Shown one piece after another: positions 1,086 to 39,545 of a DNA stretch of 64,000 nucleotides. The notes beneath the pieces were generated by a model that was not told the DNA's origin, did not search any database, and worked only from the letters and a program-made list of their open reading frames with translations. The stretch lies in the NCBI RefSeq assembly GCF_029962835.1, contig NC_080584.1, positions 76,722,862 through 76,786,861 of the forward strand. Reading direction: 5' to 3'. The stretch is from Magnolia sinica (taxonomy: Eukaryota; Streptophyta; Magnoliopsida; Magnoliales; Magnoliaceae). Within the stretch, counting starts at the first letter, position 1. Each line of letters opens with the position of its first letter. The translations under genes and the position numbers were made by a program.

Positions 1086-1097
1086 TTTGGCGTAGTG

Positions 1098-10605: not shown

Positions 10606-10639
10606 TTCAGATTGCCCACTGACTCTGCTAATAATGAGA

Positions 10640-11110: not shown

Positions 11111-11157
11111 GTAGCAACACCAGTAAGCAGTCCCCATCCAAATCCAGTATGCTACTG

Positions 11158-11690: not shown

Positions 11691-11714
11691 GCTAATGCCA
11701 ACGGCGCAGTACTA

Positions 11715-17035: not shown

Positions 17036-17044
17036 CACTACAAG

Positions 17045-17860: not shown

Positions 17861-17867
17861 AAAAAAA

Positions 17868-18085
17868 ACATTCCAGCACAAAATATTCCTGATATACACC
17901 TGTTAACACTATATTTCATCATATTCATCCTGTTATACACCTGATATATAATATATTTCATCATATTCACATTCACATCCATCCAAACATAAACTACATT
18001 CATCCAAACATAAACAATCTTATTCACATCACATTCATTCACGCATAAATACATATAAACTTAACATCATAAACAAATATAAAAA
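17868..18085. repeat. Inner flank of CACTA 2, left copy
   Basis: CATCCAAACATAAACTACAT and TCATCATATTCACATTCACA repeat here and read inverted at 36430-36660 (TTTATGTTTGGATGAATGTA). Related text occurs at 470-690 in CACTA 1. So the terminal inverted repeat of this family continues past the subterminal units. Confidence 0.85.
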
Positions 18086-18087
18086 AA

Positions 18088-19823
18088 TCATAAAGATGAA
18101 GGCGGAGGTTGTGAGGCATCCTTGGGTAAGCGTGCAGCGAGAGCCTGAAACATCTCCGTCATCCGTCGCTTATGCTCCACCCACATCTCCTCCATCCTCC
18201 TATCCTGCTCCTCTCTCTGCTTCGCCAGCTGATCCTCCATCCTCCTGTCCTGCTCCTCCCTCTGCCTCGCCAGCTCCTCCTCCATCCTCCTCGCCAGCTC
18301 CTTCATCCTCCTCTCCTACTCCTCCCTCTGCCTCACTGGCTCCTCTCTCTACCTATCCAGCTGATCTCTGATGTCATTGGTGACGACCCGTAGCTGCTGA
18401 ACCTCTCTCTCTGCGGTATCAGCTCGGCGTACGGCGTTATCGCCAAGGACGATGGATCGGCTGGAGGCAACTCTAGTGGGTGCCATGAGCTTGCCACCAT
18501 GGCCAAGCCCATGCACATATCCAGAACAGGTGCAAGCACCTGACTCAGGATCTCTGGCTTACTCTGCTGAGCACCATCGTGAGTGGGCTGACTGCATAAG
18601 GTGTCCATCTCCTCCTGTAATGAAAATATATGAATTTTCATAATAAATGACATCATTATAATTTAATGCAATTAAATTTTATAATGTAAGATTTTTTACC
18701 CAAATCTAACTAGCTCTAGGATGTACCTGATCCCGTCGCCTACCGACAGTGAGTCCCTCTATAAAAGTCTACTAGTCTGGGTTCTTAGCCAGTGACGGAA
18801 TCTAGTTGCACAATCGAAAAGATAATAGAGTTAATATAAATGCATGAAAAGAATATATAAACGTAATAATTACCAGTACTTTCTTACCATGTCATGACGA
18901 TGTCGTACAAATGACTTTGAACCAGCTATGTGGTTCACTTCTAACTTTTCCCTATTGTCAGAATTTATTTTGCTCCTCTTCTGAGCACATTATTCATAAT
19001 ACATTATTATTAATTATGAATTTAATTATTACGTTAAGATATTGTAAATATGTAAATATTACCTGAAAAGAATCAGACGAAAACCTATCGCAGAATATTC
19101 GTCAATCCTCATTGGTCACGTGCGGCAGTGCGAACTGTACGGCCTCCTCGTAGCTCGCACATCGCTTATACTGCTGGTGTAACTTACCATGGTAATCCTT
19201 GAACCGCTCCTTCATCATGTGATCGACGGCATGAAAGATGTGTGGAACACTCAAATTCAAGTCAAATTTATCCTACAGTTTCGTAAATAATAGATTAAGG
19301 TAATAAACTTATTAAGAAAATAACTTAACCGTAAATAAACTTTTATAAAATAAATTTTAATTTACTAAAATTTACCTAAAGGTGTTGACGGATGAGCTGT
19401 CGCGCATCATCGATCATGTCTCCCCAACGGGGGGTGGTGGGGGGATCAGATATCGGCATAATACACCGACCTCTGATGTAAACAATATGGCATTGTTCCC
19501 AATAGGTCTAATGCAGTCCTGTAGGAACTCTACCGTCACCCTACCCTCACACATAATTTGCTCTAAAAGCAACCCACGCGTGAGTCCACGTCCTTGTCCA
19601 CTGGTCGACAATGTTGTTGCAAAAGAAATATGTAAGTCTAAACATAAACAGAAATTATTAAAAGAAATATATGTCTAGACTTACATGCAGTGCCCGATGT
19701 ATGCGTGACTAAGGGATCAGACGCCTAAGATGCAACATGTGACGGCAATGCTGGCTCCGTCGCATCATGGGTAGAAGGGGTAAATCCAGTGCATGAATGA
19801 TATACTCTTCCACCTGGTGCCAT
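18088..19823 (-). pseudogene. TNPA-like CACTA protein, Transposase_24 family
   Basis: The gene reads leftward in about six exons joined at GT/AG borders. Exon 1 (19823-19685) starts MAPGGRVYHS. Exon 2 (about 19612-19381) has GQGRGLTRGLLLEQIMCEG and, after a frameshift at a C-rich run, WGDMIDDARQLIRQHL. Exon 3 (about 19275-19065) has FHAVDHMMKERFKDYHGKL and SYEEAVQFALPHVTNED. Exon 4 has KINSDNREKLEVNHIAGSKS then FVRHRHDMV, the family's most typical motif. Exon 5 has DFYRGTHCRRR. The last exon ends in a charged coiled coil repeating EEQDRRMEDQLAKQR. Family members bind subterminal DNA. Stops in exons 1 and 3 and the frameshift make it a pseudogene. Confidence 0.85.
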
Positions 19824-19829
19824 CACTAA

Positions 19830-20104
19830 ATATGTGCGAGCTATGAACTTATAAATTTAAACAATGTCAATACAAGTGGAATATACTAAAACATTATACA
19901 AGTAGTGTTGATGGTACAATGCATTTGTGCTTATGCTTAAAGAGATGATTAAAATATGATTATACCATTACATTATAATGCAAACAGAATATAATAAAAC
20001 TGTAAACTTTAATCTATAACCATTGAAAATTCCATTACATATTGTCATTCTATATTAAATACACGTATTTCGTTTACGAATTGAGAAATGACATGTAAAT
20101 CATG
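19830..20104. other. Spacer between the two CACTA genes, no gene seen
   Basis: AT-rich sequence with no recognisable frame. By position it would hold the end of the main transposase transcript and the start of the TNPA-like gene. Confidence 0.5.
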
Positions 20105-20111
20105 TGTACAT

Positions 20112-20558
20112 TTAATAATTGTCATCTGTATCACTATCGCTTAGGGCTATTTTTTCTTCACCATCACTATCACTTATCAGTATTTCTTCCTCATTGTCTG
20201 CAACGTCGTCATCAATGAAACTACTATCATCTCTGACAATATCATGTATTATTGAGGCATCAACATGATTAGGTGGCACATCATCTCTGTCTAATTGCAC
20301 CACATCAATATCAACACTTGAATCAGTCCCTGTATCCTTAGATGGCATGTCTTTTTGATATGCTTGTTTAACCTTAGACGTGTCATTTCGCTCGTCCTCG
20401 CTATTTTCAACTTCTGGTACGGAAACATCAAATACGTTTCTGGGCTTTATTTTCTGCACCACGTGCCCAGAGCCGCTTAACTCGGTGTCAGCGAGGTAAA
20501 ATACTTGTTCGGCTTGGCTGGCGAGGACAAATGGGTCGTCCTTAAACCACTTCCAAGT
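20112..20558 (-). pseudogene. TNPD-like CACTA transposase, C-terminal exon only
   Basis: On the minus strand the exon reads WFKDDPFVLASQAEQVFYLA, then DTELSGSGHVVQKIKPRNV, then a very acidic tail rich in D, E and S that ends SDSDTDDNY. This matches the DUF4216 end of plant CACTA transposases. The frame itself is open. Homology begins abruptly at 20558, where the telomere-like array starts, so the catalytic part and all upstream exons are gone. They are not found on the other side of the array block. Confidence 0.85.
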
Positions 20559-21862
20559 ATAGGTTAAGTATAGGTTATAAGTCTAGGTTTATGTTATAGG
20601 TTAAGGTTTTGGGATTTGAGAATAGGTTTAGGTTAAGGTTATAAGTATGGGTTATAGGTTAAGGTTTATGTTTAGGAAATCGGGTTCGGGTTCAGGATCA
20701 GGTTTAGGTTTGGGTTTAGGTTATAGGTTATAGGTTATAGGTTTAGGTTTATGTTATAAGTATAGGTTTTGGGATTTGAGAATAGGTTTAGGTTATACAA
20801 ATAGGTTTAGGTTGGGTTATAGGTTAAGGTTTAGGGATTTGAGTTTAGGTTAAGATTTAGGTTTAGGTTAAGGTTGTAAGTTTAGGTTAAGGTTATAAGT
20901 AGAGGTTATAGGTTAAGGTTAAGGTCTAGGTTTAAATTATAAGTATAAGTTTTGGAATTTGAGAATAGGTTTAGGTTAAGGTTATAAGTTTATGTATATG
21001 TTATAAGTATAGGTTATAGGTTAAGGTTATAAGTTTAGGTATAGGTTATAGGTTAAGGTTATAAGTATAGGTTAAGTATAGGTTATAAGTTTAGGTTATA
21101 AGTTAAGGTTTTGGGATTTGAGAATAGGTTTAAGTTAAGGTTGTAAGTATGGGTTATAGGTTAAGGTTTAGGTTTAGGAAATCGGGTTCGGGTTTAGGTT
21201 TGGGTTTAAGTTTTAGGTTTTAGGTTATAGGTTTAGGTTTAGGTTTATGTTATAAGTATAGGTTTTGGGATTTGAGAATAGATTTAGCTTAAGGTTATAA
21301 GTTTAGGTTAAGGATATAAGTATAGGTTATAGGTATAGGTTTAGGTTATAGGTTACAAGTATAGGTTATAGGTTAAGGTTAAGGTCAAGGTCAAGGTCTG
21401 CGCTTAGGTTATACGTATAGGTTTTGGGATTTGAGAATAGGTTTAGGTTAAGGTTATAAGTCTAGGTTTAGGTTTAGGTTTAGGTTATAGGTTAAAAGTA
21501 TAGGTTATAGGTTAAGGTTAAGGTTAAGGTCTAGGTTTAAGTTTATATTATAAGTATAGGTTGTAAGTTTAGGTTAAGGTTATAAGTAAAGGTTATAGGT
21601 TATGGTTAAGGTTTAGGGTTCAGCTATAAGTAAAGGTTTTGGGATTTGAGAATAGGTTTAGGTTAAGGTTATAAGTATAGGTTTAGGTTATAGGTTAAGG
21701 TTTAGGTTTAGTTTATAGGTATAGGTTTAGGTTTAGGTTAAGGTTTAGGTTATAGGTTTTGGTTTAGGGTTAGGGTTAGGTTATAGGCTATAGCTTTAGG
21801 GAATTGAGAATGGGTTTCGGTTATAGGTTTGGGGTTACAGGTTTAGGTTAAGGGTGTGGTAC
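20559..21862 (+). repeat. Telomere-like array, G-rich, left arm
   Basis: The array is built of GGTTTAGGTTATA, GGTTAAGGTTATAAG and related pieces, with a recurring marker GGGATTTGAGAATAGG about every 160-200 bases. The marker's complement (TATTCTCAAATCCC) recurs in the right-arm array, so the two arrays share ancestry and lie in opposite orientation. Exact TTTAGGG units are rare. Confidence 0.92.
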
Positions 21863-21864
21863 CT

Positions 21865-22363
21865 GCAAATAAAGATATAAACACGGCCTGTCCAAATGGT
21901 CAGGCCCCTCCAATGTTGTCCATAGGAAATGGACAGCTTCATCATGGTCATAACAGCGGTTCCCACCTTCCAGGGACCCCCGCTCATCCGGATAGCTCCG
22001 ACGCACATCCGGGTCTGCTCCATTAATTTTGAGCAAATACATAAACACAGCATATCCAAATGGCCAGGCCCCTCCAATGTTGTCCATAGGAAATGGACAG
22101 CTTCATCATGGTTATAACAGCAGTTCCTACCTTCCAGGGACCCCCGCTCATCCGGATAGCTCCGATGCACATCCGGGTCTACTCCATTAATTTCGAGCAA
22201 ATACAAAAACACGGCCTGTCTAAATGGTTAGGCCCCTCCAATGATGTCCATAGGAAATAGACAGCTTCATCATGGTCATAACAGCAGTTCCCACCTTCCA
22301 GTGACCCCCGTTCATTCGGATAGCTCTGACGTACATCCGAGTCTGCTCCATCAATTCTAAGCT
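21865..22363 (-). repeat. 164-bp tandem repeat, three copies, left arm
   Basis: CATTAATTTTGAGCAAATAC-like landmarks recur at 22021, 22185 and 22349, giving a period of 164 bases. Inverted copies lie at 32572-33080. Each unit can be read without stops on the minus strand (DPDVRRSYPDERGSLEGGN). The period is not a multiple of three, so each copy shifts frame and this is not evidence for a protein. Confidence 0.92.
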
Positions 22364-22383
22364 AATACAATTAAATCCTAAAT

Positions 22384-22766
22384 TAGTTACTCATTCAAGG
22401 TTGGATAGATTGTAATACTTTCATATTCTCATTTAAACATCTACACCGAAAATCCTGCAACATCTCCCCATGCCTCTCCAGATAAGTTGATCTTACGTTA
22501 CATTCCGATGCCAAATATCTAAAATAATGTAAAGATATTTGACATTGGATACGGAACAGAAGAAACATATCTAGAGAGAAACGAGGAGATGGACCGCGGA
22601 TCCAGCATGAACATTTAAATAGATTATATGAAAGTATACTATTCATCTAATCTTGAACTGTCCAAAATGGGATAACTTAAGAGATTTCTATGCCACCAAA
22701 AACACACCATATCTATGTATGGCGCCATAGAAATCCTTAAACGAGTAACTAATTATCTAACTTACA
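22384..22766. repeat. Foldback hairpin, left arm
   Basis: Text from TTAGTTACTCATTCAAGG to CCAAATATCT is mirrored by AGATATTTGACATTGG to CCTTAAACGAGTAACTAA. A smaller hairpin (GATTTCTATGCCACCA against TGGCGCCATAGAAATC) sits inside the right half. It could be a MITE or a small-RNA hairpin source. Confidence 0.8.
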
Positions 22767-23029
22767 AATCTATAAATTACAAGTCACAACTATAAACTGT
22801 AATATGAATAATTTTTTATAAGAAAATGATATATAAATAATTTTCCTAAAAATATTCTGCTACAAGAAATACATTCTTCATATCAACAATACTCTAGTGA
22901 AAAATAATGTAAATTCAAATTTAGATGCAAGGCAAATCCATATTTGTCAAATTAAACAATCAATTTCGAACTACGTCAGAAGTCGGTATTAGAAAACATA
23001 TCTCATGCCAAATGTAAATGCAAAGTTAG
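22767..23029. other. AT-rich spacer, nothing recognised
   Basis: No frame, repeat end or motif is supported here. Confidence 0.4.
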
Positions 23030-23480
23030 TTATTAAGCATTCAATATCACACATCCGAGTTGATTGATTTAAGCATCATAAACACATGTTCTAGTGGGCT
23101 GATCTTAGCATCATTACCACACATCCAAGTTGATTGATTTAAGCATCATTAACACATGTTCTAGTGGACTGATTTAATCATCGGGACTGATTCAACCATT
23201 GTAAACACATGTCCAAGTGGACTGATTTAAGCATTATAAACAAACACATGTTCTAGTGGGCTGATCTTTGCATCATTACCACACATCTAAGTGAATTGAT
23301 TTAAGCATCATAAACACATGTCAAAGTAGAGTAGACTGATTTAAGCATTGTAAACACATATCCAAGTGGAGTAACTTAAGCATCATAAATGCATGTCTAA
23401 GTGGAACTGATTTAAACATCATCAACACATGTTCTAGTGGGCTGATCTTAGCATCATTGCCACACATCCAAGTGAACTAT
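23030..23480. repeat. Minisatellite of about 36-45 bp units
   Basis: Units combine TTTAAGCATCATAAACACAT with GTTCTAGTGGGCTGATCTTA or CCAAGTGGACTGATTTAAGC. About a dozen degenerate copies are seen. Confidence 0.85.
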
Positions 23481-25130
23481 TTTGGGCCCACTAGGCTGTC
23501 CTGTGTGTCTTGCCACCTCTTGCCTTGGATCATGCAAGGAGGAGAAGGAAAAAAGGAAGGAAAAAGCTATTTTCTAGGTCAAAATTGTGATTTACTCTAA
23601 TCACCTAGATCCACTTTCCCTAGAATGTGTAGAAAGCAAAGAATGGTTTGAAAGAGGAAAGCGAGTCCACCTAGAAATGCAAACCACACCTTTTGGTGCA
23701 AAAAAATAAGAAAAAAGAAAAGGTCCTGTTTGGAACAAGGGAAATGAGAATATGAATTTAGCATATCTATAAACTTGTCAAATTCACAAGTTTGAATTAG
23801 ATTTGGATTTGGCACATCCTAAGGTCTATTATTTGAAAATCAAGCTAAAACCCATCGACTTTTAAGTATTTATTATAACAGAATAAGGTTTATTACCTTT
23901 GAAGGTCATATTCCATGGATTTTTTCCCTTTTTGATACTTGGATTTACATGAAATCCATGGGTTTATGACTGTGGAATTTGAAAATCAAAGGATTTGATA
24001 TGCTCCTAACAAAATACAAAATGGGGAGATTTAAAATCCATGGATTTCACATATCTCTACCCTAAATCCCTCACCCCAAAGAACCCCTAAACACAAACCA
24101 TAGAAAATACCTTTGTTGGGCTTTAGAAAAAAATATCACATTTCAATATATTTAATGCCAAGCACATATGCAACACACACTTAGGATGTGTGCTATTTGG
24201 GATCCCAAATGTCCATCATATGATCCCACAAGTCCATATGTCCTTATCCAAAAAATAAGTCATCCACTCATCAGGTGACACATGCCTTGCGAACAAAATG
24301 CTAAAAATTTACCAAAATTAATCAGCTATTTGGAGAAGGTTCTTACTTAATCAACTGCTTCAACTCAAAACTTCAGTTGCAACACCCACAATTTCTGATG
24401 CTGTAAAATAGTAACCAAAGAAGACCTGAGAATCTAAACTATTGCTCTCTTGCATGATAATATGCTACAAACAAGCATAACAAGATGAGGAAGACTAGTA
24501 ACAAAGTGACATAATAACAACAAAGAGAAGCTTATGAGATTTACATCTGCAGCATCAAAAACTTTACAAACACAACAAAAAGCACCCATATGACAGCACC
24601 GACAAAAGCAACACACACACACACACACACACAGAACCATTCCTTGGTAAATTATTATAACAAAAAAAGAAAGACACAAAACCATTGTGTTGATAATTTG
24701 TAACTTCATGTAAACCATAACGGATCATCCAATGTAGACTTTACAACATAAAGCCTCAACGACTCAGTATTTGGGCTAAATATCCCAAGGATATGCTCAC
24801 CGTTTCACATGAAAAGTGTTTTTCACTTGTATGTGGATACTTCTCCAAATTCTAATATCAAATCTCTCCTTTTACTCCATAATGAAACTAATGAATCTTT
24901 GCTTATATTCTTATTCATGAGCATTTAATTTGTAATCTGTGCAACTATGTCAGCTATAATTTCTGTAAATTGCAAAATGGATTCAAAGTTGTGAAATTTT
25001 CTATTGGATTATGTGCTTGCACTTGAAATAAAAAAAAATACATTCCTAACAGATCATTTTGTGGTCTTCTTTCTTTCACTTTCTTCAATCATTCATGCAC
25101 TTAGTTTGTTGAGAAACTTCTTTTTCTTTT
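23481..25130. other. Core segment without recognisable gene
   Basis: Frames of 70-95 codons occur but carry no domain I recognise. A (CA)n run lies at 24609-24634. I cannot say whether this is captured host DNA or an unknown element. Confidence 0.4.
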
Positions 25131-25137
25131 CTTTTTT

Positions 25138-25447
25138 TCAGGCAGTGGTACAGGGACTCTGCTGAGCTGAGGAAAAATACCAATTAGGGATTTTCAATTT
25201 TGAGTTCCTCACCTCCAGACATGGTAAATGATGATCAACCATACAAAATCCCAATCTGGGATAAAGCTCCTCTAGAAATAAGGAATTACAAAAGCAGAAA
25301 TACCAATTAGGGATTAAAAGTTCAAAAAGCCCCAATTAGGGATTTGGAATTTCAAAAATCCCCAATTTGAGATTTTCAATTTCGAAGCCCTATTAGAAAA
25401 GGAAAAGGAAGATAGAGAAGAGGAAGAGGAGAATACCACTACCGCTG

Positions 25448-25490
<43 letters not shown>

Positions 25491-25603
25491 GTTGGTCGTG
25501 AGGTCGCAAGCGAGAAGGAGATGGCGAGAGCGAGAAAGTACGAGGAATGCGTGATGACCCTGCCATTGCCGAATGGATGTGGATTGCATGGTAGGGTGAA
25601 GAG

Positions 25604-25653
<50 letters not shown>

Positions 25654-25687
25654 GCGAGAGAGGCAGAGACAGAGAGGAGAGGGTGCC

Positions 25688-25730
<43 letters not shown>
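25138..25730. repeat. GA/CT microsatellite cluster with AATTAGGGATT repeats
   Basis: Three (GA)n runs lie near 25447-25488, 25605-25650 and 25690-25722. To their left, CCAATTAGGGATT and similar words repeat at 25181-25370. Between runs the minus strand reads MAGSSRIPRTFSLSPSPSRL from an ATG. This might be the start of a captured gene with CT-rich leader, but no homology is recognised. Confidence 0.7.
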
Positions 25731-25837
25731 TGGAGTTTTAGGTTTGGGTTTTGGGAAGATGGGCGCGGGGGAGGATTAGAAGGGATTTGGTTTTAGGGGG
25801 GTGGTGAGCCCAAGATTTGGGGTAGGCGACGGGAGAG

Positions 25838-26320
25838 TTGTGTGGGCCCCACCATAATGCGTGTCAAACATCTACCCCATGAGTCAGATGCACCATTCCA
25901 TGGTGGGCCCAGAGATTAAAAATCAAGTCAATCTGTGACTTGTGTGTGCCACACTACATACAAAAGTTGAGAGGGGTTACCCTCCATTAAAACATTCATA
26001 ATTATTTTTTGGGCCCACCGAGATGTGGTCCACAAATCCAGCCCATCCATTATGTGTGTACCACTTGGATGAGGGGTCATACCAAGTTTCAAACACATCC
26101 AAATTTCAGGTGGGGCCCACACTGTGCTTTTATATGTTTTAGGCACGTCTTCACCTGATTTTTGATGGTATGGCCCACCGGAGTTCCGTATATGGCTGAT
26201 TTTTAGGATATCCTATAATTGAAAGGGGACCCATCAAACGCATGGTGTTGATGTTTGACACACGTCATGGTGGGGCCCACCAGCATGGCACACGTGAGCT
26301 ACATTCTACACACACATGGG
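25838..26320. repeat. MITE-like foldback, variant
   Basis: GTGGGCCCCACCATAATGCG on the left is mirrored by CGTCATGGTGGGGCCCAC on the right, with GTGTCAAACATC against GATGTTTGACAC just inside. The middle carries a second GTGGGGCCCACA motif. It shares the GGGCCC ends of the main MITE family but differs inside. Confidence 0.72.
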
Positions 26321-26329
26321 CCTTTGTTT

Positions 26330-26560
26330 CCAAAAATTGAATAAATCCAAATATTAGGTGGACCACATCTAGGGGAAATTGTGGTGTTGCCAGTCCATTC
26401 TGGTTCCAAAAATTAAATAGATCCAAATATTAGGTGGACCACATCTAGGGGAAATTGTGGTGATCGAATGCTCACCATTAAAAACTTCCTAGAGCCTACA
26501 GACCTTAATAAGGTCAACTAGACTTATATGAAGGGAAAAATACAAATAGTCCCTGTCCCA
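26330..26560. repeat. MITE-like half unit with internal duplication
   Basis: AATATTAGGTGGACCACATC followed by TAGGGGAAATTGTGGTG occurs twice in about 75 bases, then the CTCACCATTAAAAACTTCC arm follows. Confidence 0.7.
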
Positions 26561-27314
26561 AAAATCAGGTCGTTCGCCTCAGTCAACTGAACAAATGTAT
26601 GGTTGTGAAAGGATAAGCCATAGGCTTATTATAATATTTCTTTTTTAGTCGAATTTGTTTTAAGATGATTTTGTAATGGTCCATCTTAATCAGCTATTAG
26701 GCTTATAATAGTTGACTGTGCTGCTCATCTGATGGGCCCTACGGTATAATTAGTAGGGTTATACTGGGGCCTGCCAAGCACAACCCATGAGCTAAATTTT
26801 GGAACCTAGGCTTGGCCCAACCTGTTAGCTGAACCGCTGAGTATAGGTATAACTGGTCCTATTCTGGCTTTAACAGTGGATTATTGAAGCATTACTTTAA
26901 ATCCACTGGCTATAGGACCAACATGGAAATACCAATAATTTCACAATGGAATGCCAAAGTGACACATTCATCAGGATGTGATGGGGAATTGTGGAGTTGA
27001 ATTAAGCAAAGTAATTGCAATCATACGATCAAATTTAATAAAGAACAATATGAATTTATATAAAAAAAAATTCTTTCAAAAAAATCACGGCACAAATGGG
27101 ACGATTAAATAATATCAGAAGCACATTTATTAGATAGAATGTAAAACCATATATTTTCTTATGGTTTCTCTGCAACATTAGCAGAACAAGCTAATTCTAC
27201 AACTAGGTAGGTTTATCCTGAGCAATAAGATGCCGAGGCACCCATCCTGTTTCCTAGAATCATTTCAGATAAGATATCAAAAAAAGGTCTGAGGGTACAG
27301 GTTGATCGATGCTG
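26561..27314. other. Spacer, no gene seen
   Basis: No frame or transposon end is supported. The stretch is AT-rich towards 27060-27180. Confidence 0.4.
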
Positions 27315-28465
27315 GTAACTATATGATGTGATTCACATATCCAACCCACTCATTATGTGTGTCCCACTTGGATGAGGGGTCAAATCAATTTTCAGCGGCA
27401 TCTATCCATCCAGTTTACCATATAATTTTAAATCTTGATCCCAAAAATGAAAAAATCCAAATATCAAATATCAAATGAACCACACAATAGGAAATAATAT
27501 GAATTGAACTTCTACCATTGAAAAATCATTGGGGGCCATAGAAGTTTTGGATCAAGTTTATATTTGATTTTTCCCTTCGTCCATGTTTGTATGATTGTAT
27601 GAACATGTTGGTTGTCAAATAAACATGACTATGAGGCCTAGCAAGTTTTCAATGGTGGAAATCATTATTCCCACTGTTTCATGTGGTATGATCCACTTGA
27701 GCTCTGTATTTGCTTCAATTTTAGTCTCAATCCCATAAATAAGCCAGAAAAATGGATGGACAACATGGATAAATCATATACATTCATCATGGGTCAATTG
27801 AGTTTACTCGGTATGATAAAAGATCTGATTTCCTTGTCAATAGGTTGGATGGTAAATTGGATTGAGTACTAAGTTACTCAGTACGCTCTTATCGTACTGA
27901 GTAAACTCGGTTGGGCCCACCTTGAACGTATGTGGTCTATCCATGCCGTCCATCCATTTTTCCATCTAATTTAAGGGGTTAAGCCCAAAATTGGCGCACA
28001 TACAAAAATGAAGTGGATCATACCATAGGACAATTAGGATAATGATTTCCACTTGTGAAACCTTTCTAGGCCCAACAATAATGTTTATTTGTCATCCAAT
28101 TAGTTTATAAGATTATACAGACATATGTATGAGAAACAAAAATTTAAGCTTGATCCAAAACTTACGTGGCCCTAAGAAATTTTCAATGGTACAAGTTCAA
28201 GTCCATTGTTTCTTATGGTGTGGTACATTTGAAAATTATATATGCTTCATTTTTGGGCTCAATTCCTAAAATTACTTGGATGGCAAATGAATATTTAAGT
28301 GGACCCGTGTTGTTTTTAATGGTAGGAATTTAGTTGAGATTGTTTCTTATTGTGTGGCCCACTTGAGATTTGGGTCAGCTTCATTTTTTTATCATCTCCT
28401 AAAATGAGCTTTCAATACGGATGGACAATGTGGATGTAAGGAAAGTACATCACTGTGGGCCCCGC
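27315..28465. repeat. Two adjacent MITE-like foldbacks
   Basis: The first (about 27315-27790) has CATGGATAAATCATATACAT on its right side. The second (about 27890-28465) runs from GTTGGGCCCACCTTGAACGT to ACATCACTGTGGGCCCC with an inner mirror GTGGATCATACCATAGG / CTTATTGTGTGGCCCACTTG. Between them a short palindrome joins TACTCAGTACG to CGTACTGAGTA. Confidence 0.7.
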
Positions 28466-28593
28466 AGTTAGGCATCTGAAACTGCCCCTGCAAAACAGCG
28501 CCGTTCCACGATTACGCAAAAGTAAAAGGAGAGGGGAAAGGAAAATAGAAAAAAGAAAAAAGAAAAACGAATAAGGGTTAGGGCTTACCTTAC

Positions 28594-28619
28594 CACACAC
28601 ACACACACACACACACACA
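28594..28619. repeat. (CA)n microsatellite
   Basis: A pure CA run just upstream of the exon-like segment at 28637. Confidence 0.95.
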
Positions 28620-28636
28620 GAGGGAAGGAGACACTG

Positions 28637-28766
28637 ATGGATCCAACACGCAAGAGGGTATCTTCATTCGGATATCTATTCGTCAGCTCGATGGATCTAG
28701 CACGCAAGAGCGTAAGGCCGGATGCTTTCAATGGAAATGGCGTCAGTTCGACGCAGATGAAGCAAG
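28637..28766 (+). other. Exon-like segment, unassigned
   Basis: An ATG opens a frame reading MDPTRKRVSSFGYLFVSS, then MDLARKSVRPDAF, then GVSSTQMKQ, ending at AAG|GTTTTT, a possible splice donor. GATGGATC and CACGCAAGAG recur 54 bases later, so it contains an internal duplication. It could be the first exon of a captured host gene. No family is recognised and it may be chance. Confidence 0.3.
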
Positions 28767-29152
28767 GTTTTTCTCTCTCATTCTCTCCTTTTCCAGGGTT
28801 TTAATTTCTTCTTTCTCTTTGGCTCCTGCATTCATGTGCTTCATTTGTCTGTACTCTGTTTTAGATATGTATGGATTTGGTTTTAGGGTTTGTGGATGTG
28901 AAAACAAGACTAAGATGACATTTAGTACGAATCCAAAATGGATTTAGGAAATTGGGAGTTAGTAGTTTGTAGATTCTCGATTTGAATGTGGACCCCAAAA
29001 TGGGTTTTTCTAATTTTACAAATCGGGGATTTAGGGAATTTAGGATTTTGGGGATTTAAGGACTTTTGAAATTGTGGATTTTCTGATTTTAAAAATTGGG
29101 GGTTTGTCTTTCTAATCTGTCAGTACAATTGGTTTGTTTTGTTTGTTTGTTT

Positions 29153-29184
<32 letters not shown>

Positions 29185-29200
29185 ACACACACACACACAC
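29153..29200. repeat. (CA)n(CG)n(CA)n microsatellite
   Basis: A CG core flanked by CA runs. Alternating purine-pyrimidine DNA of this kind favours Z-form helix under supercoiling, from general knowledge. Confidence 0.95.
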
Positions 29201-29607
29201 CTCATGCTGCTCTTAATTTGATAAGGGTTAAAGAAAAATAGGAAAAAGTTGGAAGTTTGAGCTCAAATATAACAATGAACTGCTAACATGGGCATGTGAT
29301 TGTGCTAAGAACCCATAATATCTGCAACATTTGGTACTTGAGATTGGGTTGCAATGCGGAGAACCCATTAGATGAAATAATGGGCCATGTGAAGAATACT
29401 TCGATGGGTAAGCTAACCAAGCATCCCAATTCTTAGGGTTTTGTACTATCTGTTTGTAGACAGAATCTAAATGTCGAACTCAATGAGTTGAAAATCGGCA
29501 TTTATAGTTGGGGCTCTTTTTGGAAAAAATGACATTTGTTTTGGTGAGGTGGAGCAATCGGGGCTCTTTTTAGCAGAATGACATGGATTTGGATGAATTG
29601 GAACAAC

Positions 29608-29670
29608 CACTACAACAAACTAGAGCTTACCCGGCACTTTGGGTGTGCCTTTCACCAGTGCTAAGTAAAA
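29608..29670 (+). mobile_element. CACTA-like end, small element
   Basis: CACTACAACAAACTAGAG is followed by the subterminal palindrome-like GGCACTTTGGGTGTGCC, a pattern common at plant CACTA ends. A possible partner end near 30652-30664 (TTTAGTTGTAGTG) would give an element of about 1.05 kb. The three flanking bases do not match, so the pairing is unproven. Confidence 0.45.
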
Positions 29671-29749
29671 CTTCCTAGGGATTTTTTTTTTCTTTTTGAT
29701 GTTGCTAGTCGGAATCCCTTTTGGAAATCGTTTTTCCTTGTGTTCTACG

Positions 29750-29868
29750 TTGGAAGATGTTGTTGATGCATATAAAATGTGGGATAATGATTGATGCCTG
29801 CTAGTTGTTCGATGAAATGCATGAAAGAAACTTAGTTTCTTGGAACACCATTATAGTTGGGATGGTTT
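29750..29868 (+). pseudogene. PPR protein gene fragment
   Basis: With one shift and one TAG, the plus strand reads VDAYK, then DAC-stop-LFDEMHERNLVSWN and TIIVGMV. This is the classic repeat of plant PLS-type pentatricopeptide repeat proteins (consensus near LFDEMPERNVVSWNTMI), which bind organelle RNA. Only about one repeat is present, so this is a gene scrap. The inside position in a CACTA core suggests capture, but a random insertion is possible. Confidence 0.7.
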
Positions 29869-30699
29869 GAGTTATTTCATCTGATTTCAATTATAATTAA
29901 AATCTTTAAATTCACATCATATGGCCAACCTGTGTTTTAGAATACTGTAATTTTTTAGTAAGTCTTTGATCTCGTTGAATTTTAAAATACTATGATTTTT
30001 GGATAATTCTTTCGTCTTGAGGAGGCACACTAGGTTAATGAATTTTATGACGTTAAACCCCACTACAGGCCTTAAAAAACTAATGTAGGCATCCCATCCC
30101 AACTATTTCTAATGAGTATTGGATCATCTGATTTTTGGGTTCCATGGTGAACAATGAGGGCATCATACCTGATGGACGATATCGATGTTATTAAAGTTCC
30201 ACCCATGAGTTCTTATAAAAGTTAACTTATGATGAGCTACAACTTGTATGAGGTCCTTTTCAGTTGAATGTGTACTATCTTTCTCTCTTTTTAACCATCC
30301 ATCTGTCCATCTGTAGGCCATAAATCGAAAGGTTAGTTTGTCTTATTGATGAAAATCTCAAGACATGCCTGTCCACTAGGGGACACAACAAAGGGACACT
30401 GTCTGGATTGCAAATCTATGTGTTTCAATGGTCAGATTTAAAATCAGATTTCGTCAAACAAAATTCTCCCCTGGAAGAGTCGATCGGGTCGACCTAACCT
30501 GACTCTGCCGTAAGGCCCAAGTCTATTGCGACTCGGCCGAGTTAGGACGAATCATGGTTGTAAAAAGCAAGCTGCAGTGTCAACCAAGACATGGAGTTGA
30601 AGGAGGCTGGGACTTAGTCTCCAAACCTGGATAACAGATGTGGAAAATCATTTAGTTGTAGTGTCTGATGAATAATACTTTATTTCACTTGGGGTTGTG

Positions 30700-30870
30700 G
30701 ATTAGGTGAGTACTTAACTATGGAGCCCACCTTAATGTATCTGTTGTACATCCACTCTGTCCATCAGTTTTTCAGCTCATTTTAAAGCATGGATGTACAA
30801 CTCGTACATCAAGTGGACCCCACCGACAAAGACTCACCTAATCACTCAATGCATGGGCCCCACTCATAAT
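30700..30870. repeat. MITE-like half unit
   Basis: GGAGCCCACCTTAATGTATC and TCAGCTCATTTTAAAGCATG match the left arm of the foldback family. The opposite arm is missing. Confidence 0.6.
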
Positions 30871-31383
30871 AAGGGTCCCACGGACTACCATTAGATCCAA
30901 ATGCATCTTATTTTCTACTTTTTATAATAGTACACCCACTAATATTATTCTAGTAGCAAAGGTACAAAAAATAGGTGTACGCATAAAAACCAAAAAAGAA
31001 AGTACCATAAGTAGGAAAAGTGGGGTATGCACCAAAATATGAGGGTATCAATATCAACTTCCCTTGAAATAAATGGAGCAATTCAAACATAGACATCAAG
31101 AGATTTAATTACCAAAATCTCCACGAGCAATTGAGATGTTACTCTCATACCTCTTATGGAAGCATGCCTTTGTTGTCTTTGAGATTTCATGCCGTGTTTG
31201 AAGTATAACGCTTTAACTGAGTATTTTGAATTGATACACTTGAAATTTAAAATTAAGATAGAGTCCCACACATTTATTACAAGCATGCAATAACATTGAA
31301 AGAAACCTTATACATATTCAGAAAGTAGGTAGAGTCCTAGAAACAGTGAAATTCCTAGAAGGAAACAATTATTATTTCCACCT

Positions 31384-31386
<3 letters not shown>
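30871..31386. other. Spacer, no gene seen
   Basis: A frame of 67 codons on the minus strand (31083-31286) has no recognisable domain. I see nothing else. Confidence 0.4.

Positions 31387-31468
<82 letters not shown>
31387..31468. repeat. (CA)n then (GA)n microsatellite
   Basis: A CA run of about 44 bases passes directly into a GA run of about 37 bases. Confidence 0.97.
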
Positions 31469-31469
<1 letters not shown>

Positions 31470-31760
31470 AAATTATATTAAAATGGGGTGGAAATAGCTT
31501 TTCTAAGCTTATCAGATCTGTTAGGTTGCATTTATGAAACTAAATCTATTTCAATTAATGTGTTTATTTTCTCCTTGGAAATGTATCCTCATTAGTATGG
31601 ACCATCCCAATTCTTAGGGTTTTGTACTATCTGTTTGTAGAAAAAATGTGAGATGAAAACTTATTTTCTGTCTACACCAAAAGATAAGATTTAAAAAAAA
31701 AAAAAAACTTATTTTTTGCCATTTCCCCTCACATATGAGAAAAGAGACTTATAAATAATA

Positions 31761-31762
<2 letters not shown>

Positions 31763-31812
<50 letters not shown>
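31763..31812. repeat. (TC)n microsatellite
   Basis: A pure TC run of about 50 bases. Confidence 0.97.
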
Positions 31813-31814
<2 letters not shown>

Positions 31815-32205
31815 CATGTCCAGTTTAGTACATTGTGACTCGAGTTACATTGTACCCCGCTATTTGTGTTATAATGTAAAAGAAATTATTTTATTTTCCG
31901 CCATTCAAAAAATGGCTGCAAACCAAACACCCATCAAATGACCGCCTTATCGGTGGTGAATGATATGATACCTAATACACTGATTTTAATCCTTAGTTTT
32001 TAATGACAGGTGGGGCCCATGGTCCAATAATCCAAACCCATGCCTTTTTGTCCCAACAACAAATGGACTATGCCTAAGAATCTCCTCGATAGGACAATAT
32101 TAACCTATCAATTTTTGGCTTCTATATAAAAGGTTACATTGTCTTGTCTCACTCATGTACCATTTCATGTTATATACATTGTATTATATACATCGTTGAA
32201 TATAC

Positions 32206-32541
32206 ATTGTACGAGGGTTACAGTAATCTTGGAGTGCAGAAATTCCAAGTCTATGCATTTTAGTTCGAGTTCCTTCTCTAATCACGATTGCCTTGGGAGG
32301 GTTGATACGAGGGATGGGTTAACTGCGAAAGGGTCGATTAAAATTATATTGGGTTATCTTGCTGGTCCTGAAATCATTATATCCAGTAAGATAACCCAAT
32401 ATAGTTTTAATAAGCCCTTTTACAATCATCCCTCGTATCAACCCTCTCAAGGCTATCGTGATTATAGAAATAACTCGGACTGAAATGCACATACTTGAAA
32501 ATTTTCTGCACTCTAAGATTACTGTAAACCTCGTACAATTT
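32206..32541. repeat. Long foldback hairpin, right arm
   Basis: Arms of about 155 bases pair across a loop of about 17 bases (32366-32382). The left arm from TTGTACGAGGGTTACAGTAA to GGGTTATCTTGCTGG is mirrored by CCAGTAAGATAACCC to TTACTGTAAACCTCGTACAA. By eye well over 80 percent of positions pair, including GGGTTGATACGAGGGAT. RNA from it would form a long hairpin, so it is either a MITE or a source of small RNAs. Confidence 0.88.
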
Positions 32542-32571
32542 ACTTAGAAATTTATAGCACTCTAAGTTTAT

Positions 32572-33080
32572 GTATTTGCTCGAAATTAATGGAGCAGACC
32601 CGAATGTGCATCGAAGCTATCTGGATGAGCGGGGGTCCCTGGAAGGTGGGAACCACTGTTATGACTACGATGAAGCTGTTAATTTTTTATGGACAGCATT
32701 GGAGGGTCGTGGCCATTTGGACAGGCTATGTTTATGTATTTTCTAGAAATTAATGGAGCAGACCCGGATGTGCATCAGAGTTATCCGGATGAGCGGGGGT
32801 CCCTGTAAGGTGGGAACCGCTGTTATGACCATGATGAAGCTGTCCATTTCCTATTGACAGCATAGGAGGGACCTGGCCATTTGGATAGAGTGTTTTATGT
32901 ATTTGCTCAAAATTAATGGAGCAGACCCGGATGTGCGTCGGAGCTATACGGATGAGCGAGGGTCCCTACAAGGTGGGAACCGCTGTTATGACCATGATGA
33001 AGCTGTCCATTTCTTATGGTCAATATTGGAGGGGCCTGGCCATTTGGACAGACCGTGCTTATATCTGTATTTGCAGGGAC
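32572..33080 (+). repeat. 164-bp tandem repeat, three copies, right arm
   Basis: AAATTAATGGAGCAGACCC recurs at 32583, 32747 and 32910. These are inverted copies of the units at 21865-22363 and sit in the mirror position relative to the arrays. Open frames across them are a by-product of the repeat. Confidence 0.92.
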
Positions 33081-36000
33081 CACACCCTTAATTTAAACCA
33101 CACCCTAAACATATAACCTATTCTTAATTCCCTAAAGCTATAACCTATAACATAAACTTAAACCCACACCTAATCCTAATATCAACTCCTTAACCTAAAC
33201 CTAAACTTGATAACCCAAACCTAAACCCAATCCCGAACCTAAACCCAAACCCAATTTCCAAAACCTAAACCTTAACCTATTCTTAATTCCTTAAAGCTAT
33301 AACTTATAACCTAAACCTAAACCTGTAACCTAAAACCTATACCTAAACCTAAAACCTAAATGTATTCTCCAATCCCTAAACCTAAACCTACACCTAATCC
33401 TAATCTCAACTCCCAAACCCAAACCTAAACTTAAATTTGAAAACCCAAACCTAAACACTATCCCGAACACCAACCCGAACCCGATTTCCTTAACCTATTC
33501 TCAATTCCCTAAACCTATAACTTATAACCTAAACCTAAACCTACACCTAATCCTAATATCAACTCCTTAACCTAAACCTAAACTTGAAAACCTAAACCTA
33601 AACCCGATTCCGAATCCAAACCCAATTTCCAAAACCTAAACCTTAACCTATTCTCAATTCCCTAAAGCTATAACTTATAACCTAAATCTAAACCTATAAC
33701 CTAAAACCTATACCTATACCTAAAACCTAAATGTATTCTCAAATCCCTAAACCTAAACATACACCTAATCCTAATCTCAACTCCCTAACCTAAACCTAAA
33801 CTTAAACTTGAAAACCCAAACCTAAACACTATCCCAAACCCCAACCTGAACCCAATTTCCTAAACCTAAACCTTAACCTATTCTCAATTCCCTAAAGCTA
33901 TAACCTATAACCTAAACCTAAACCTATAAGCTAAGCCTATAACCTTAACATACACCTAATCCTAATCTCAACTCCCTAACCTAAACCTAAACCTAAACTT
34001 GAAAACCCAAACCTAAACACTATCCCAAACCCCAACCTGAACCCGATTTCCTAAACCTAAACCTTAACCTATTCTCAATTCCCTAAAGCTATAACCTATA
34101 ACCTAAACCTAAACCTAAACCTATAAGCTAAGCCTATAACCTTAACCTAAACCTAAATCTAAAACCTAAATGTATTCTCAAATTTCTAAACCTAAACCTT
34201 AACCTATTCTCAATTCCCTAAACCTTAACCTATAACCTAACTTAAACCTAAACCTATAACCAAAACTTATAACCTAAAACCTAAATGTATTCTCAAATCC
34301 CTAAACCTAAACCTACACCTAATCCTAACCTCAACTCCTTAACCTAAACCTAGACTTGAAACCCCAAACCTAAACCCGGTCCCGAACCTGATTTCCTAAA
34401 CCTAAACTGTGACCTATTCTCAATTCCCTAAACCTTAACCTATAACCTAACTTAAACCTAAACCTATAACCGACACTTATAACCTATAAACTAAAACCTA
34501 AACCTAAAACTAAAATCTAAATGTATACTCAAATCCCTAAACCTAAACCTACACCTAATCCTAATCTCAACTCCTTATCCTAAACATAAACTTCAAAACC
34601 CAAACCTAAACCCGAACCCGAACCCGATTTCCTAAACCTAAACCTTAACCTATTCTCAATTCCTTAAACCTATAACCTATAACCTATAACCTAAACCTAA
34701 ACCTAAACCAAAACCTATAACCTAAACCTAAACCTATAACCTAAAATTATAACCTATAACCTAACCTTAACCTTAACCTTAACCTAAACCTAAAACTAAA
34801 CCTAAAACCTAAACCTAAACCTATAAACGAAAACTTAAACCTAAACCTAAAACCTAAAACCTAAATGTATTCTCAAATCCCTAAACTTAAACCTACACCT
34901 AATCCTAATCTCAACTCCTTAGCCTAAACATAAACTTCAAAACCCAAACTCGAACCCGAACACGATTTCCTAAACCTAAACCTTAACCTATTCTCAATTT
35001 CCTAAACCTATAACCTATAACCTTTAACCTAAACCTAAACCTAACCTAAACACACAACCTAAACCTATAACCTTAACCTAAACCTAAACCTAAAACCTAA
35101 ACTTAAACCTAAACCAAAACCTATAACCTTAACCTAAACCTTAACCTATAACCTATAACCCAATAACCTAAACTTATAACTTTAACCTAAACCTAAACCT
35201 CTAACCTAAACCTATAAACTAAAACCTAAACCTAAAACCTAAATGTAATCTCAAATCCCTAAACCTAAACCTACACCTAATCCTAATCTCAACTCCCTAA
35301 CCTAAACCTAAACCCGATCCCGAACCCGAACCCGATTTCCTAAACCTAAACCTAAACCTTAACCTATTCTCAATTCCCTAAAGCTATAACCTATAACCTA
35401 TAACCTAAACCTAACCTTAACCTAAACCTAAAACCTAAACCTAAACCTAAACTTAAAACCTAAATGTATTCTTAAATCCTCAAACCTAAACCTACACCTA
35501 ATCCTAATCTCAACTCCCTAACCTAAACCTAAACCTAAACTTGAAAACCCAAACCTAAACCCGATCCCGAACTCGAACCTGATTTCCTAAACCTAGACCC
35601 TAACCTATTCTCAATTCCCTAAAGCTATAACCTATAACCTAACTTAAACTTAAACCTATAGCCGACACTTATAACCTATACCTAAACCTATAACCTAAAC
35701 CCAAAACCTAAATGTATTCTCAAATTGCTAAACCTACACCTACACCTAATCCTAATCTTAACTCCTTAACCTAAACCTAAACTTGAAACCCCAAACCTAA
35801 ACCCGAACCTGAACCCGAACTCGATTTCCTAAACCTAAACCTTAACCTATACTCAATTCCCTAAACCTTAACCTATAACCTAACTTAAACCTAAACCTAT
35901 AACCTATACTTATAACCTAAACCTAAACCTATAACATAAACCTAAAACCTAAATGTAATCTCAAATCTCTAAACCTAAACCTACACCCAATCCTAATCTC

Positions 36001-36376
36001 AACTCCCTAACCAAAACTTAAACATAAACTTAAAAACTGAAACCTAAACTCAATACTGAACCCGAACCAGAACCTGATTTCTTAAACCTAAACCTTAACC
36101 TATTCTTAATTCCCTAAAGCTATAACCTATAACCTATAACTTAAACCTATACATAAACCTAAATTTAAACCTAAACCTATAACCTAAACCTAAACCTTAA
36201 CCTAAACCTAAACCTATAACCTTAACCTAAACCAAAACCTATAACCTATAACCCATAACTTATAACCTAAACTTATAACCTATAGCCTAACCTTAATTTA
36301 AACCTGAAACCTAAACCTAAACCTATAACCTAAACCTATAAGTGTAGGTTATAGGTTTAGGTTTAGGTTAAGGTTG
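33080..36376 (-). repeat. Telomere-like array with higher-order units, right arm
   Basis: About 3.3 kb of C-rich CCTAAAC, CCTATAAC and CCTTAAC. Larger units are marked by ATGTATTCTCAAATCCC near 33359, 33730, 34169, 34285, 34520, 34864, 35243, 35463, 35709 and 35950, followed in most by CCTAATCCTAATCTCAACTC and then AACCCGAACCCGATTTCC. The spacing varies from about 115 to 440 bases. Only the last 36 bases or so (from about 36341) switch to the G-rich orientation. Confidence 0.93.
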
Positions 36377-36660
36377 TTTTTCTCTTCATTTGTCTGGATC
36401 ACCTCTCATATGTTCTCGCTCTTTCCATTTGTTTTTTTTCATAAGATTGTTTGTGTTTGGATGGATGCAGTTTATGTTTGGATGAATGTAGTTTATGTCT
36501 GGATGAATTTACGTAGTTTGGGTTTAGATGGATGCGAATGTGAATGTGAATATGATGAAATATATTATATAACAGGTGTATATCAGGAAGAATATGATGA
36601 ATTATATTCTAACAGGTTTATATTCGAAAATTTGAGATGGAATTTTTTTTTAAAGAGACT
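36377..36660. repeat. Inner flank of CACTA 2, right copy
   Basis: TTTATGTTTGGATGAATGTA and GGTGTATATCAGGAAGAATA read inverted relative to 17868-18085. The first part (36377-36430) has no partner on the left and may be a remnant of the transposase upstream region. Confidence 0.82.
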
Positions 36661-37640
36661 TTTACCTACGAAATATTTCATAGATAAAAGTCTAGACAGC
36701 ATTTAACGGCGAACATTTTCGTCGCTAAAAGTCTCATCCACGTTTTTTAGTTATGAAAATTTTCGTTGCTAAAAGTCTCATCGACATTTTTTTGAAAAAT
36801 TGTTTGTAGCCTTTAGCAATGAAACTTTTCATCGTTAAAAGTCTCATTCACGTTTTTTAGTTACGAAAATTTTCACAGCTAAAAGTAATCCTTTCGAATT
36901 TTTTGAAAAAATGTTTGCAGCCTTTAGCAACGAAACTTTTCATCGATAAAAGTCTCATCCACGATTTTTAGCTACGAAAATGTTCATAGCTAAAAGAAAT
37001 CCTTTCAATTTTTTTTGAAAAATTGTTTGCAGCCTTTAGCGATGAAACTTTTCATTGCTAAAAGTCTCATCCACAATTTTTAACTACGAAACTTTTCATA
37101 GCTAAAAGTAATCCTTTCGAATTTTTGAAAAATTGTTTGCAGCCTTTAGCGACGAAACTTTTCATCGCTAAAAGTCTCGCCCACAATTTTTAGCTATGAA
37201 AATTTTCGTAGCTAAAAGTAATGCTTTCGAATTTTTTAAATATTGTTTACAGCCTTTAGTGATGATTTTCGTCGCTAAAAGTCTCATCCATGATTTTTAG
37301 TTATGAAAATTTTCGTAGCTAAAGGTAATTCTTTCGAATTTTTTGAAAAATTGTTTGCAGCCTTTAGCGATGAAACTTTTCATCGCTAGCAGTCTCATCC
37401 ATGATTTTTAGCTACGAAAATTTTCGTAGCTAAAAGTAACTTTTCGAATATCAATGTAAAACTGAAAAGAACCTTTAGCGACGAAAAGTTTCGTCGATAA
37501 AGGTGACTTTTAGCTTCGAATTTACAATTTCGTCGCTAAAAATAAACTTTTAGTGAGGAAAATTTATTTCGTTGCTAAAAGTGAGTTTTAGCGACGAAAA
37601 GGTGTTTCATTGCTAAAAGTTTTGTCGCTAGAAACCCTCT
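36661..37640. repeat. Right subterminal repeats of CACTA 2
   Basis: Units such as TTTAGCTACGAAAATTTTCG and TTTAGCGACGAAACTTTTCA recur with links CCTTTCGAATTTTTTGAAAA. They match the left subterminal cluster in inverted orientation. Confidence 0.92.
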
Positions 37641-37651
37641 TTCTTGTAGTG

Positions 37652-39545
37652 CCTTCTCAAGCACTTCTCCATTCAACGGGGCTGATGGAGACGTGTTTAT
37701 CAGATACACTGCTATGTGCATTACTTCTCCTTAGAACATCTTGGGCAATTTTGCATGGGATAACATGCATCTGATTCTCTCTACAATGGTGCGATTCATT
37801 CGCTCAGCCACACCATTATGCTGGGGGGTCTTGGGAACCATCTGTTCTTACCGTATACCCATGGACTTGCAATACTCATGAAAGTCGTCGATGTCTTCAC
37901 CACCATTGTCAGTGTAGATGCACTTCAATGATCTACATGTCTCTCTCTCGACCATAGTATGAAACAATTTAAACACAACAAAGACCTCGTCCTTGGATTT
38001 TAAAGCATAAACCCAAACCCTCCTAGATACATCATCTATAAAAGTGATAAAATACAATGCCCCACCCAAGGTTTTTATCCTCATAGGACCACGAACATCA
38101 GAATAAACCAATCTAATGCATGCACTTTATTAACATGAGAAGGAGTTTTAACGAATGAAACTCTATGCTGTTTTCATAATAAACAATCAATACAAGTTTT
38201 GAGAGGTGTACCTATCACGTTTGGAAGGAGCCGCTTCCTCACTAGTAGCTGAAGCCCTTTTTCACTCATGTGGCCTAGATGCCTGTGCCACATGTCAATA
38301 GCTGAATCTTTCGCTATGTTCAACCCACCCTTGTACACACTGACACTTGCGTTGTAAAGGGTGCAACACATCTTTCCTTTGGTTGCGATCAATGAACCCC
38401 TGATGAGCTTCCAGTACCCACCAGCAAACTGGCTTTCATAGCCATCATCATCCAACCTTCCCATCAACATCAAGTTGAGGCGAAGATCTGGGATATGCTT
38501 CACATCCCTGAGAACTAATGTGTAGCCCACATCGGTCTTCACACAAATATCACTGACCCTTATGATCTTCGATATGCTAAAATTTTCCATCTTCACATCC
38601 CAAAGTCACCTGACTTGTAGCTTATGAAGAAGTCCATGCATGGAGTCGTGTGAAAAGAAGCTCCCGTGTCAATCACCCAATCGGTGTCCTGACTCGTAGC
38701 CGTGAGACAAACATCATGATCTACTAAAAGAATAACTACAATGACGCCATCTAAAGCGACCGCAGTGGAATCTGATTCATCTTCCTTCTCCTTTTCCTTT
38801 CTTGTCGTTCTTATTCTTATGACATTCATGCTTATAGTGGCCCTTCTTGCCATAATTCCACCATTCAATATCTTTCCTGGTACTCGACTTGCCTCTTGAT
38901 TTATCTTGGGCCTTCCCGCCCTTCCTGTTCTTTCCTCTCCCCCATTCCTATGTCACAAGATCCTCTTGCTAAGTAAACCCCTGAGACTTTCTCCTTGTCT
39001 CCTCATTGAAGAGACAACTAGTTACCTGTTCCATGGATACCTTTCTGTCTGGCGCGGAGTTACTTAGAGACACCACCAATGTCTCCCAACTAATCAGGCA
39101 ATGAACTAAGCAATAATAAAGCCTCCAATTCATCATCCAGGACCATCTTCATAGCGGAGAGCTGGTTCACTATATTGTTGACCTCATTCATGTGCTCGAG
39201 CATAGAACCACCATCTTTGAACTTGAGATTCACAAGTCGTCTTATCAGGAAGATTTTATTACCAGCTGTCTTTCTCTCATACGGCCCTTCCAATTTCAGC
39301 CATAGGCTAGCGCCTGAGGTTTCCATAGACACATGGTGGAACACAGAGTCATCCAGCTATTGTCTAATAAACCCCACCGCCTTCTGGTCCAACTTCTTCC
39401 AATCATTATCAGACATATGCTTGGATTTTACTGATATGCCTAAAATTGGAGAATATAGGTCCTTGTAATAAAGTAAGTCCTCTATCTTAGCCTTCTATAT
39501 GGTCCAATCATTGAGGCTGATCATCCTTGATGAGCCACCTTCCAT
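37652..39545 (-). pseudogene. Copia polyprotein, N-terminal part (gag, protease, integrase)
   Basis: Starting from the ATG at 39545 (MEGGSSRMISLNDWT), gag reads FKDGGSMLEHMNEVNNIV. A zinc knuckle has lost its first two cysteines (WWNYGKKGHYKHEC). The protease motif is WVIDTGASFHTTP. The pre-integrase zinc region reads MWHRHLGHMSEKG with a later CIDC. The integrase core has acidic residues in TFIDDVSRRVW, IYTDNGGEDI and NRTIVERIR. Many stops are W codons changed to TAG or TAA. Homology stops at the CCT target site and resumes in frame at 17035. Confidence 0.92.

Follow-up and report, generated by a model that had tools for sequence, protein, structure and literature searches.

What are two telomere-like arrays, inverted relative to each other, doing inside a transposon? 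The question is raised by a window, meaning the whole stretch of 64,000 nucleotides analysed here (C12:76722862-76786861 of the 1.8386 Gb Magnolia sinica assembly; positions are those of the window unless another stretch is named). A CACTA transposon in this window holds a block of two arms, each made of a telomere-like array and three 164-bp units, on either side of a core. An earlier note on this DNA had read the block as a compound foldback element that replaced the catalytic part of the transposase gene. The block is, very probably, a standing part of a large CACTA (En/Spm) family, making up the upstream half of the element, and is moved by the terminal inverted repeats (TIRs) as one piece: its joints are common to many places in the genome, and a copy on C7 (copy B) has the transposase gene as well as the block.

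The CACTA element and its mirrored block

The whole CACTA element of the window copy lies at 17036-37651 (20.6 kb; minus strand, after its gene), as delimited by TIRs and flanks. The TIR is CACTACAAGAAA, the end at 17036 reading CACTACAAGAAATC and the end at 37651 reading TTTCTTGTAGTG, both of CACTA type, and the element is bordered by a CCT/CCT target duplication (17033-17035 and 37652-37654) of the 3-bp length typical of the superfamily. Subterminal repeats, likewise a CACTA feature, are present as arrays at 17185-17762 and 36716-37449. The first belongs to the left end (17036-18100, plus strand, 3' side of the gene), which has tandem repeats and matches the right end in inverted orientation, and the second to the right end itself (36376-37651, plus strand, 5' side of the gene). 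We file the window copy as CACTA because of its TIR, its target duplication and a remnant of DUF4216; a member of the superfamily may be non-autonomous. The copy inserted into a Copia element with the 3-bp duplication: when 150 bases from each flank are joined, the Copia polyprotein frame reads through the CACTA site, with one stop that lies away from the joint. The long terminal repeats (LTRs) of this Copia element (14105-14965 and 39603-40423) are 89.6% identical (K 0.113).

The block begins with the left telomere-like array (20553-21860, minus strand, 1.3 kb, GGTT strand), whose outer edge is probably a deletion joint. It continues with the joint of array and unit and the three 164-bp units of the left arm (21861-22369, minus strand; units proper 21877-22369), a core of 10.2 kb (22370-32561), the three units and the unit-array joint of the right arm (32562-33099, plus strand; units proper 32562-33062), and the right array (about 33100-36340, plus strand, 3.25 kb, CCTAAA strand). 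A snap-back at 36308-36369, with a perfect 25-bp stem (36308-36332/36345-36369), marks the joint of the right array and the CACTA end. The arms are long and mutually inverted, complementary at 89% over 323 nt and at 93% over 206 nt; the 206-nt match (21840-22045 vs 32894-33099) spans the joint of unit and array, so this joint is alike in both arms. The earlier note was thus right about the surrounding transposon, the inversion of arrays and units, and a core of about 10 kb. The six units form no clear mirror pairs, with L1 closest to the rest, and the two arrays have a common higher-order repeat and unequal lengths; no one-to-one register (collinearity) between them was found when they were compared.

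Two further parts of that description had to be narrowed. The telomere-like arrays are real, with AACCTA occurring 80 times on the array strand of the left array and 209 times on that of the right, and CCCTAAA 4 and 18 times; AAACCCTAA is absent from both window arrays, which are not the head-to-tail TTTAGGG/CCCTAAA of interstitial plant telomere repeats. We reject true plant telomere repeats and describe the arrays as degenerate AACCTA-type repeats. The arm order claimed for both sides (array, three units, hairpin) stands for array and units; the hairpin is not a mirrored part. A strong hairpin resembling a miniature inverted-repeat transposable element (MITE) is found at 32203-32542 (z -23.3), while the hairpin on the left (22415-22637, z -5.4) is weak and decayed, and the similarity between the two, which are unrelated, is below the shuffled mean.

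The core has no recognisable protein domains. Among its 80 open reading frames (ORFs) of at least 42 amino acids, Pfam was run on 74, the other six lying in simple repeats or overlapping others, and revealed no captured host gene (best E 0.0028). No non-coding RNA or tRNA reached the gathering score within the window, and the translated 164-bp unit had no relative in viral and prokaryote collections. Because the block has neither domains nor ends of its own, we take it to be passenger DNA that has become a standing part.

An assembly error, either a false palindrome or a collapsed repeat, was also considered, the earlier note having named a palindromic misassembly as what would refute it. Long arrays are hard to assemble, and a second copy with 97% identity lies 84.7 kb downstream. 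The unit stretches of the two arms are, against this, only 88.3% identical over 529 aligned bases (Kimura two-parameter distance, K2P, 0.129), and this difference of about 12%, together with the same mirrored layout on the contigs C7, C9 and C10, leads us to exclude chance and to reject an artefact, whose probability is negligible. Divergences of K 0.129 for the arms, K 0.113 for the Copia LTRs and K 0.072 for the outermost unit plus joint are too imprecise to order the events.

Joints and copies across the genome

Four joint-spanning queries were run against the genome, and in each the best 40 of 2466-3000 candidates were scored, the window and copy A (below) being counted where applicable; such best-scored matches favour full-length joints and show that the joints are common and frequent, not the share of all copies that has them. 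At the inner joint of array and 164-bp unit (window 21800-22210), all of the best 40 of 3000 candidates start at base 1 or 3 with at least 91% identity. The joint of gene start and array, taken from copy B (L058 4300-4700), is spanned from base 1 to 399-401 at a minimum of 94% in 40/40 (best 40 of 2514). Across array, snap-back and right end (window 36250-36600), the best 40 of 2795 match at 90% or more, 39 of them starting at base 1 and one at base 19; the snap-back is seen as an inverted self-match in every one of these 40, and the same right joint was read directly in the window, in copies B and F and at locus L057. The fourth query runs from array into the end of a second CACTA type (E1; window 150-480) and is matched at 92% or above by all of the best 40 of 2466 candidates.

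The genome search for linkage of unit and array, which the earlier note had proposed, was borne out both in these matches and in the 30 loci read around 164-bp units (L028-L057, including the window as L028 and copy A as L029). All 30 have the array outside, in one polarity relative to the unit, and 2 to 4 units; the array of L036 is short, at about 0.2 kb, and the interior beyond the units varies among the loci. These data bear on the idea that array and units are a dispersed satellite taken up independently by many elements, the mirror being incidental. The array does occur in at least two CACTA end types, and satellite capture by CACTA elements is known (PMC8978399, available text). Independent uptake predicts differing joints, however, and the joints recur at 90-100% identity (best 40 per search) with the polarity of array to unit constant in 30/30 loci; we consider this idea improbable.

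Copies of the core point to the block as one inherited structure. A piece of it (24000-24600) has 41 genome matches, many of them short, with all or most of the piece present at six places beyond the window (copies A to F, each read in part). Four of the six have both arms, inverted: copies A, B (C7), E (C10) and F (C9). The number of 164-bp units per arm ranges from 1 to 5 among the copies. Copy A (C12:76824592-76848591, L009-L011) repeats window 17004-40937, that is, the CACTA element with its Copia surroundings, at 97% identity and lies 84.7 kb downstream with unchanged orientation. It has the same deletion as the window copy and may have arisen by segmental duplication or be a second haplotype left unmerged.

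The transposase gene and the block are also associated by distance. The transposase N-terminus (L058 3829-4497) has 1710 candidate matches, of which all 150 that were scored match at 76-100%. When these 150 N-termini were paired with the 40 right joints within 60 kb, 7 pairs were found, 6 of them in the expected orientation and 19-39 kb apart (one being copy F); random placement gave 0.44 on average and never more than 3 in 300 trials. Three pairs of N-terminus and arm within 40 kb, all consistent with a right arm, compare with a random mean of 0.25 and a maximum of 2. With the ends added, an element size of about 20 to 45 kb would follow. A tree built from 43 joint-plus-unit sequences groups the arms of B and F by side, left with left (support 0.88) and right with right (0.87), which is what joint inheritance of the two arms would predict; it also pairs the right arms of the window and copy A (0.997). 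The numbers of candidates suggest that the CACTA family is one of very high copy number.

Several observations weigh against the block as a fixed part of a CACTA family. In the stretches read, the two arms of copy C (C9) point the same way and copy D (C10) shows a right arm only; the left TIR of copy B lies beyond the stretch reached. One of the 7 pairs of N-terminus and right joint is in the wrong orientation, the left arms of the window and copy A are not a clade, and the remaining arm tree is poorly resolved. The scored joints are the best of thousands and do not give the proportion of arrays outside CACTA elements. Among nine outer array flanks selected for a closer look, those of L057 and L038 are CACTA ends belonging to the two known types and that of L043 is still array; five (L032, L036, L039, L042 and L048) fit no CACTA end of the window, which has three, and the L034 flank meets an E1-type terminus in reverse orientation. 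At L034 the array abuts the outer terminus of the E1-type CACTA, as if a CACTA had jumped into the array.

The five unmatched flanks also speak for a rival reading, in which a foldback or long-TIR element made of arms and core inserted upstream of the transposase in an ancestral CACTA, was carried along and was also mobile elsewhere. Mirror arms of 2-5 units each around a core and the variable interior beside the units would agree with such an element. Foldback elements have long inverted arms built of tandem repeats, and Mutator-like elements (MULEs) with multiple long TIRs, again long inverted arms, have reportedly been described; in both the arms are the element's ends, whereas here they lie inside CACTA ends. 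Two of the odd flanks look like LTR ends in an unaided reading of the letters, i.e. later insertions. Each outer joint is one common sequence, in 40/40 scored matches on the left as on the right, as for an inherited part, and inspection by eye shows no target duplication at 20553/36376, though the left edge of the window copy is probably a deletion joint. We reject the foldback element with ends of its own that the earlier note had proposed, along with a MULE-type one, as the outer joints are fixed internal joints and the arms are neither at element ends nor visibly flanked by a target duplication; a separate element of any kind appears very improbable.

For the block as a standing CACTA part, the order in gene sense from the right end would be right TIR and subterminal repeats, snap-back, array, units, core, units, array, transposase gene and left TIR. 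Transposition by a CACTA transposase acting at the TIRs is a general property of the superfamily, and here the transposase would act at the TIRs with the arms riding along, having no ends of their own. A satellite module of array and 164-bp units may have been captured by an ancestral CACTA, come to lie in both orientations around a core and then spread through transposition. Copies would later have lost parts, as the window copy seems to have lost 3.3 kb of its transposase gene.

The transposase gene and a possible giant intron

Only the 3' part of the transposase gene remains in the window (18101-20552, minus strand), with DUF4216 cut at profile position 40 (Pfam E 1.9e-7, profile 40-67 of 73). 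Transposase_21, the tnp2-type domain, is absent from the window copy and present in copy B. The related sequences P0008, P0010 and P0012 extend upstream at the point where the window switches to array, with the break within a few bases of 20552. The gene of copy B (minus strand; L058 1156-4497) gives, in order, Transpos_assoc (E 1.4e-20), Transposase_21 (7.3e-98), DUF4218 in two pieces (1.8e-30 and 6.5e-18) and DUF4216 (1.4e-14). It is split into several frames, and copy B is not claimed as an active element.

The equivalent of window 20552 is position 1251 of copy B, where the gene continues to about 4520 and array begins at about 4555 (BLAST), the array ending 35-50 bp before the first conserved transposase codons. 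The layout then continues through array, units, core, units, array and snap-back to the right CACTA end and TTTCTTGTAGTG. The comparison suggests that the window copy lost 3.3 kb of the transposase gene including the catalytic part, with 20552/20553 as the deletion joint. The catalytic part is thus indeed missing from the window, as the earlier note had seen; because copy B has both the block and the transposase domains, the block did not take its place.

The position of the block upstream of the gene suggests that it may be a giant first intron of the transposase gene. A donor-like ATGAGAG|GTGATC lies beside the array at the right end on the sense strand in all four places where it was looked at (window, B, F and L057), and a possible end of exon 1 with its ATG would be at 36412-36421 (minus strand) in the window. 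In copy B an acceptor-like TTGTAG|AC precedes the conserved codons, and joining it to the donor-like site puts the ATG in frame. Including the residues that precede the ORF extends the Transpos_assoc match from profile 7-74 to 1-74 and improves it from E 1.4e-20 to 1.6e-24; this gain comes from the exon-2 side and supports the position of the gene start, not the splice itself.

A more far-reaching proposal can be offered tentatively, and we lean somewhat against it. The CACTA family would have fixed the mirrored telomere-like satellite within its own transposase transcription unit, with the start codon close to the right end and the remainder of the gene past a first intron of 15-35 kb walled by inverted telomere-like arrays. 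The amplified family, with thousands of first-look candidates, would be a main source of interstitial telomere-like DNA in Magnolia sinica, and the arms could recruit telomere-repeat-binding proteins or pair to control transposase splicing.

Known systems and further observations

Among known CACTA elements, maize En/Spm is far shorter than the elements here and is not known to carry telomere-like arrays. It likewise has TIRs, subterminal repeats and a tnp2-type transposase gene (PMC5105172, available text). The same source describes the Tpn1 family of Ipomoea nil, CACTA elements of up to 40.6 kb with 3-bp duplications and subterminal repeats, in which internal regions are exchanged for other DNA. 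Tpn1 differs from the elements here in that its non-autonomous copies swap the interior for captured genes, and telomere-like mirrored arms are not described in the available part of that paper.

A precedent is Jozin, a CACTA-like element of Chenopodium quinoa with an internal satellite array of 5.55 kb and a 171-bp monomer, an array that several elements of that genome have in common (PMC8978399, available text). As in Jozin, a captured satellite array lies inside CACTA ends in several elements. Jozin has, as far as that text describes it, a single array, close to the 3' end, without a mirrored partner, whereas here there are two inverted arms with two repeat types, on the 5' side of the gene and telomere-like. 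Satellites inside CACTA elements were thus already known; what is unusual here is the mirrored arrangement of telomere-like arms, the constancy of its position upstream of the transposase gene and a very high copy number. No report of mirrored telomere-like arms inside CACTA elements was found in the open-licence papers searched, and the main text of the M. sinica genome paper (PMC10999834) is without mention of CACTA, telomere, satellite or tandem repeat.

The family described here would show a transposon that made a telomere-like satellite a standing part of itself and scattered it across a plant genome, which gives a testable source for interstitial telomere-like DNA. It would also be a natural case of very long inverted arrays within a gene and, if the intron reading is true, one in which splicing and silencing over tens of kilobases of inverted satellite could be tested. 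Annotation calls for caution, as such arms are probably not an element of their own.

Matches outside the assembly were all made at the protein level. The translated left arm matches P0001 (JGI contig, 1148 bases), which leads from the unit across the joint and on into array-like sequence, and P0005, which stops at the joint; it also matches P0002 and P0007 of M. sinica, and others. P0007, annotated as nuclear-pore anchor-like, starts with the translated 164-bp unit and may be a mis-annotation or a gene with the repeat inside it. Two sequences filed under Mycobacterium kansasii, P0004 and P0009 (on contigs of 368 and 265 bases), hold plant repeat and CACTA sequence and are probably draft-assembly contamination.

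The end of the second CACTA type lies at 1-1098 (plus strand) and has the TIR CACTACGCCAAAA and the same kind of array at 1-277. It carries GGACGGTC-type subterminal repeats and has a TTTGGATGAATG stretch and the array in common with the main element; a splice-like CAG|GTGAAAG is found between its array and its end. Next to it, an LTR-like long direct repeat of 2.1 kb occupies 1124-3258 and 7506-9641 (91%), inverted relative to 43413-45017 (74%). A family of palindromic MITE-like repeats is found at 10075-12227, 27423-28274, 6732-6889 and 51227-51332, with one copy inside the core.

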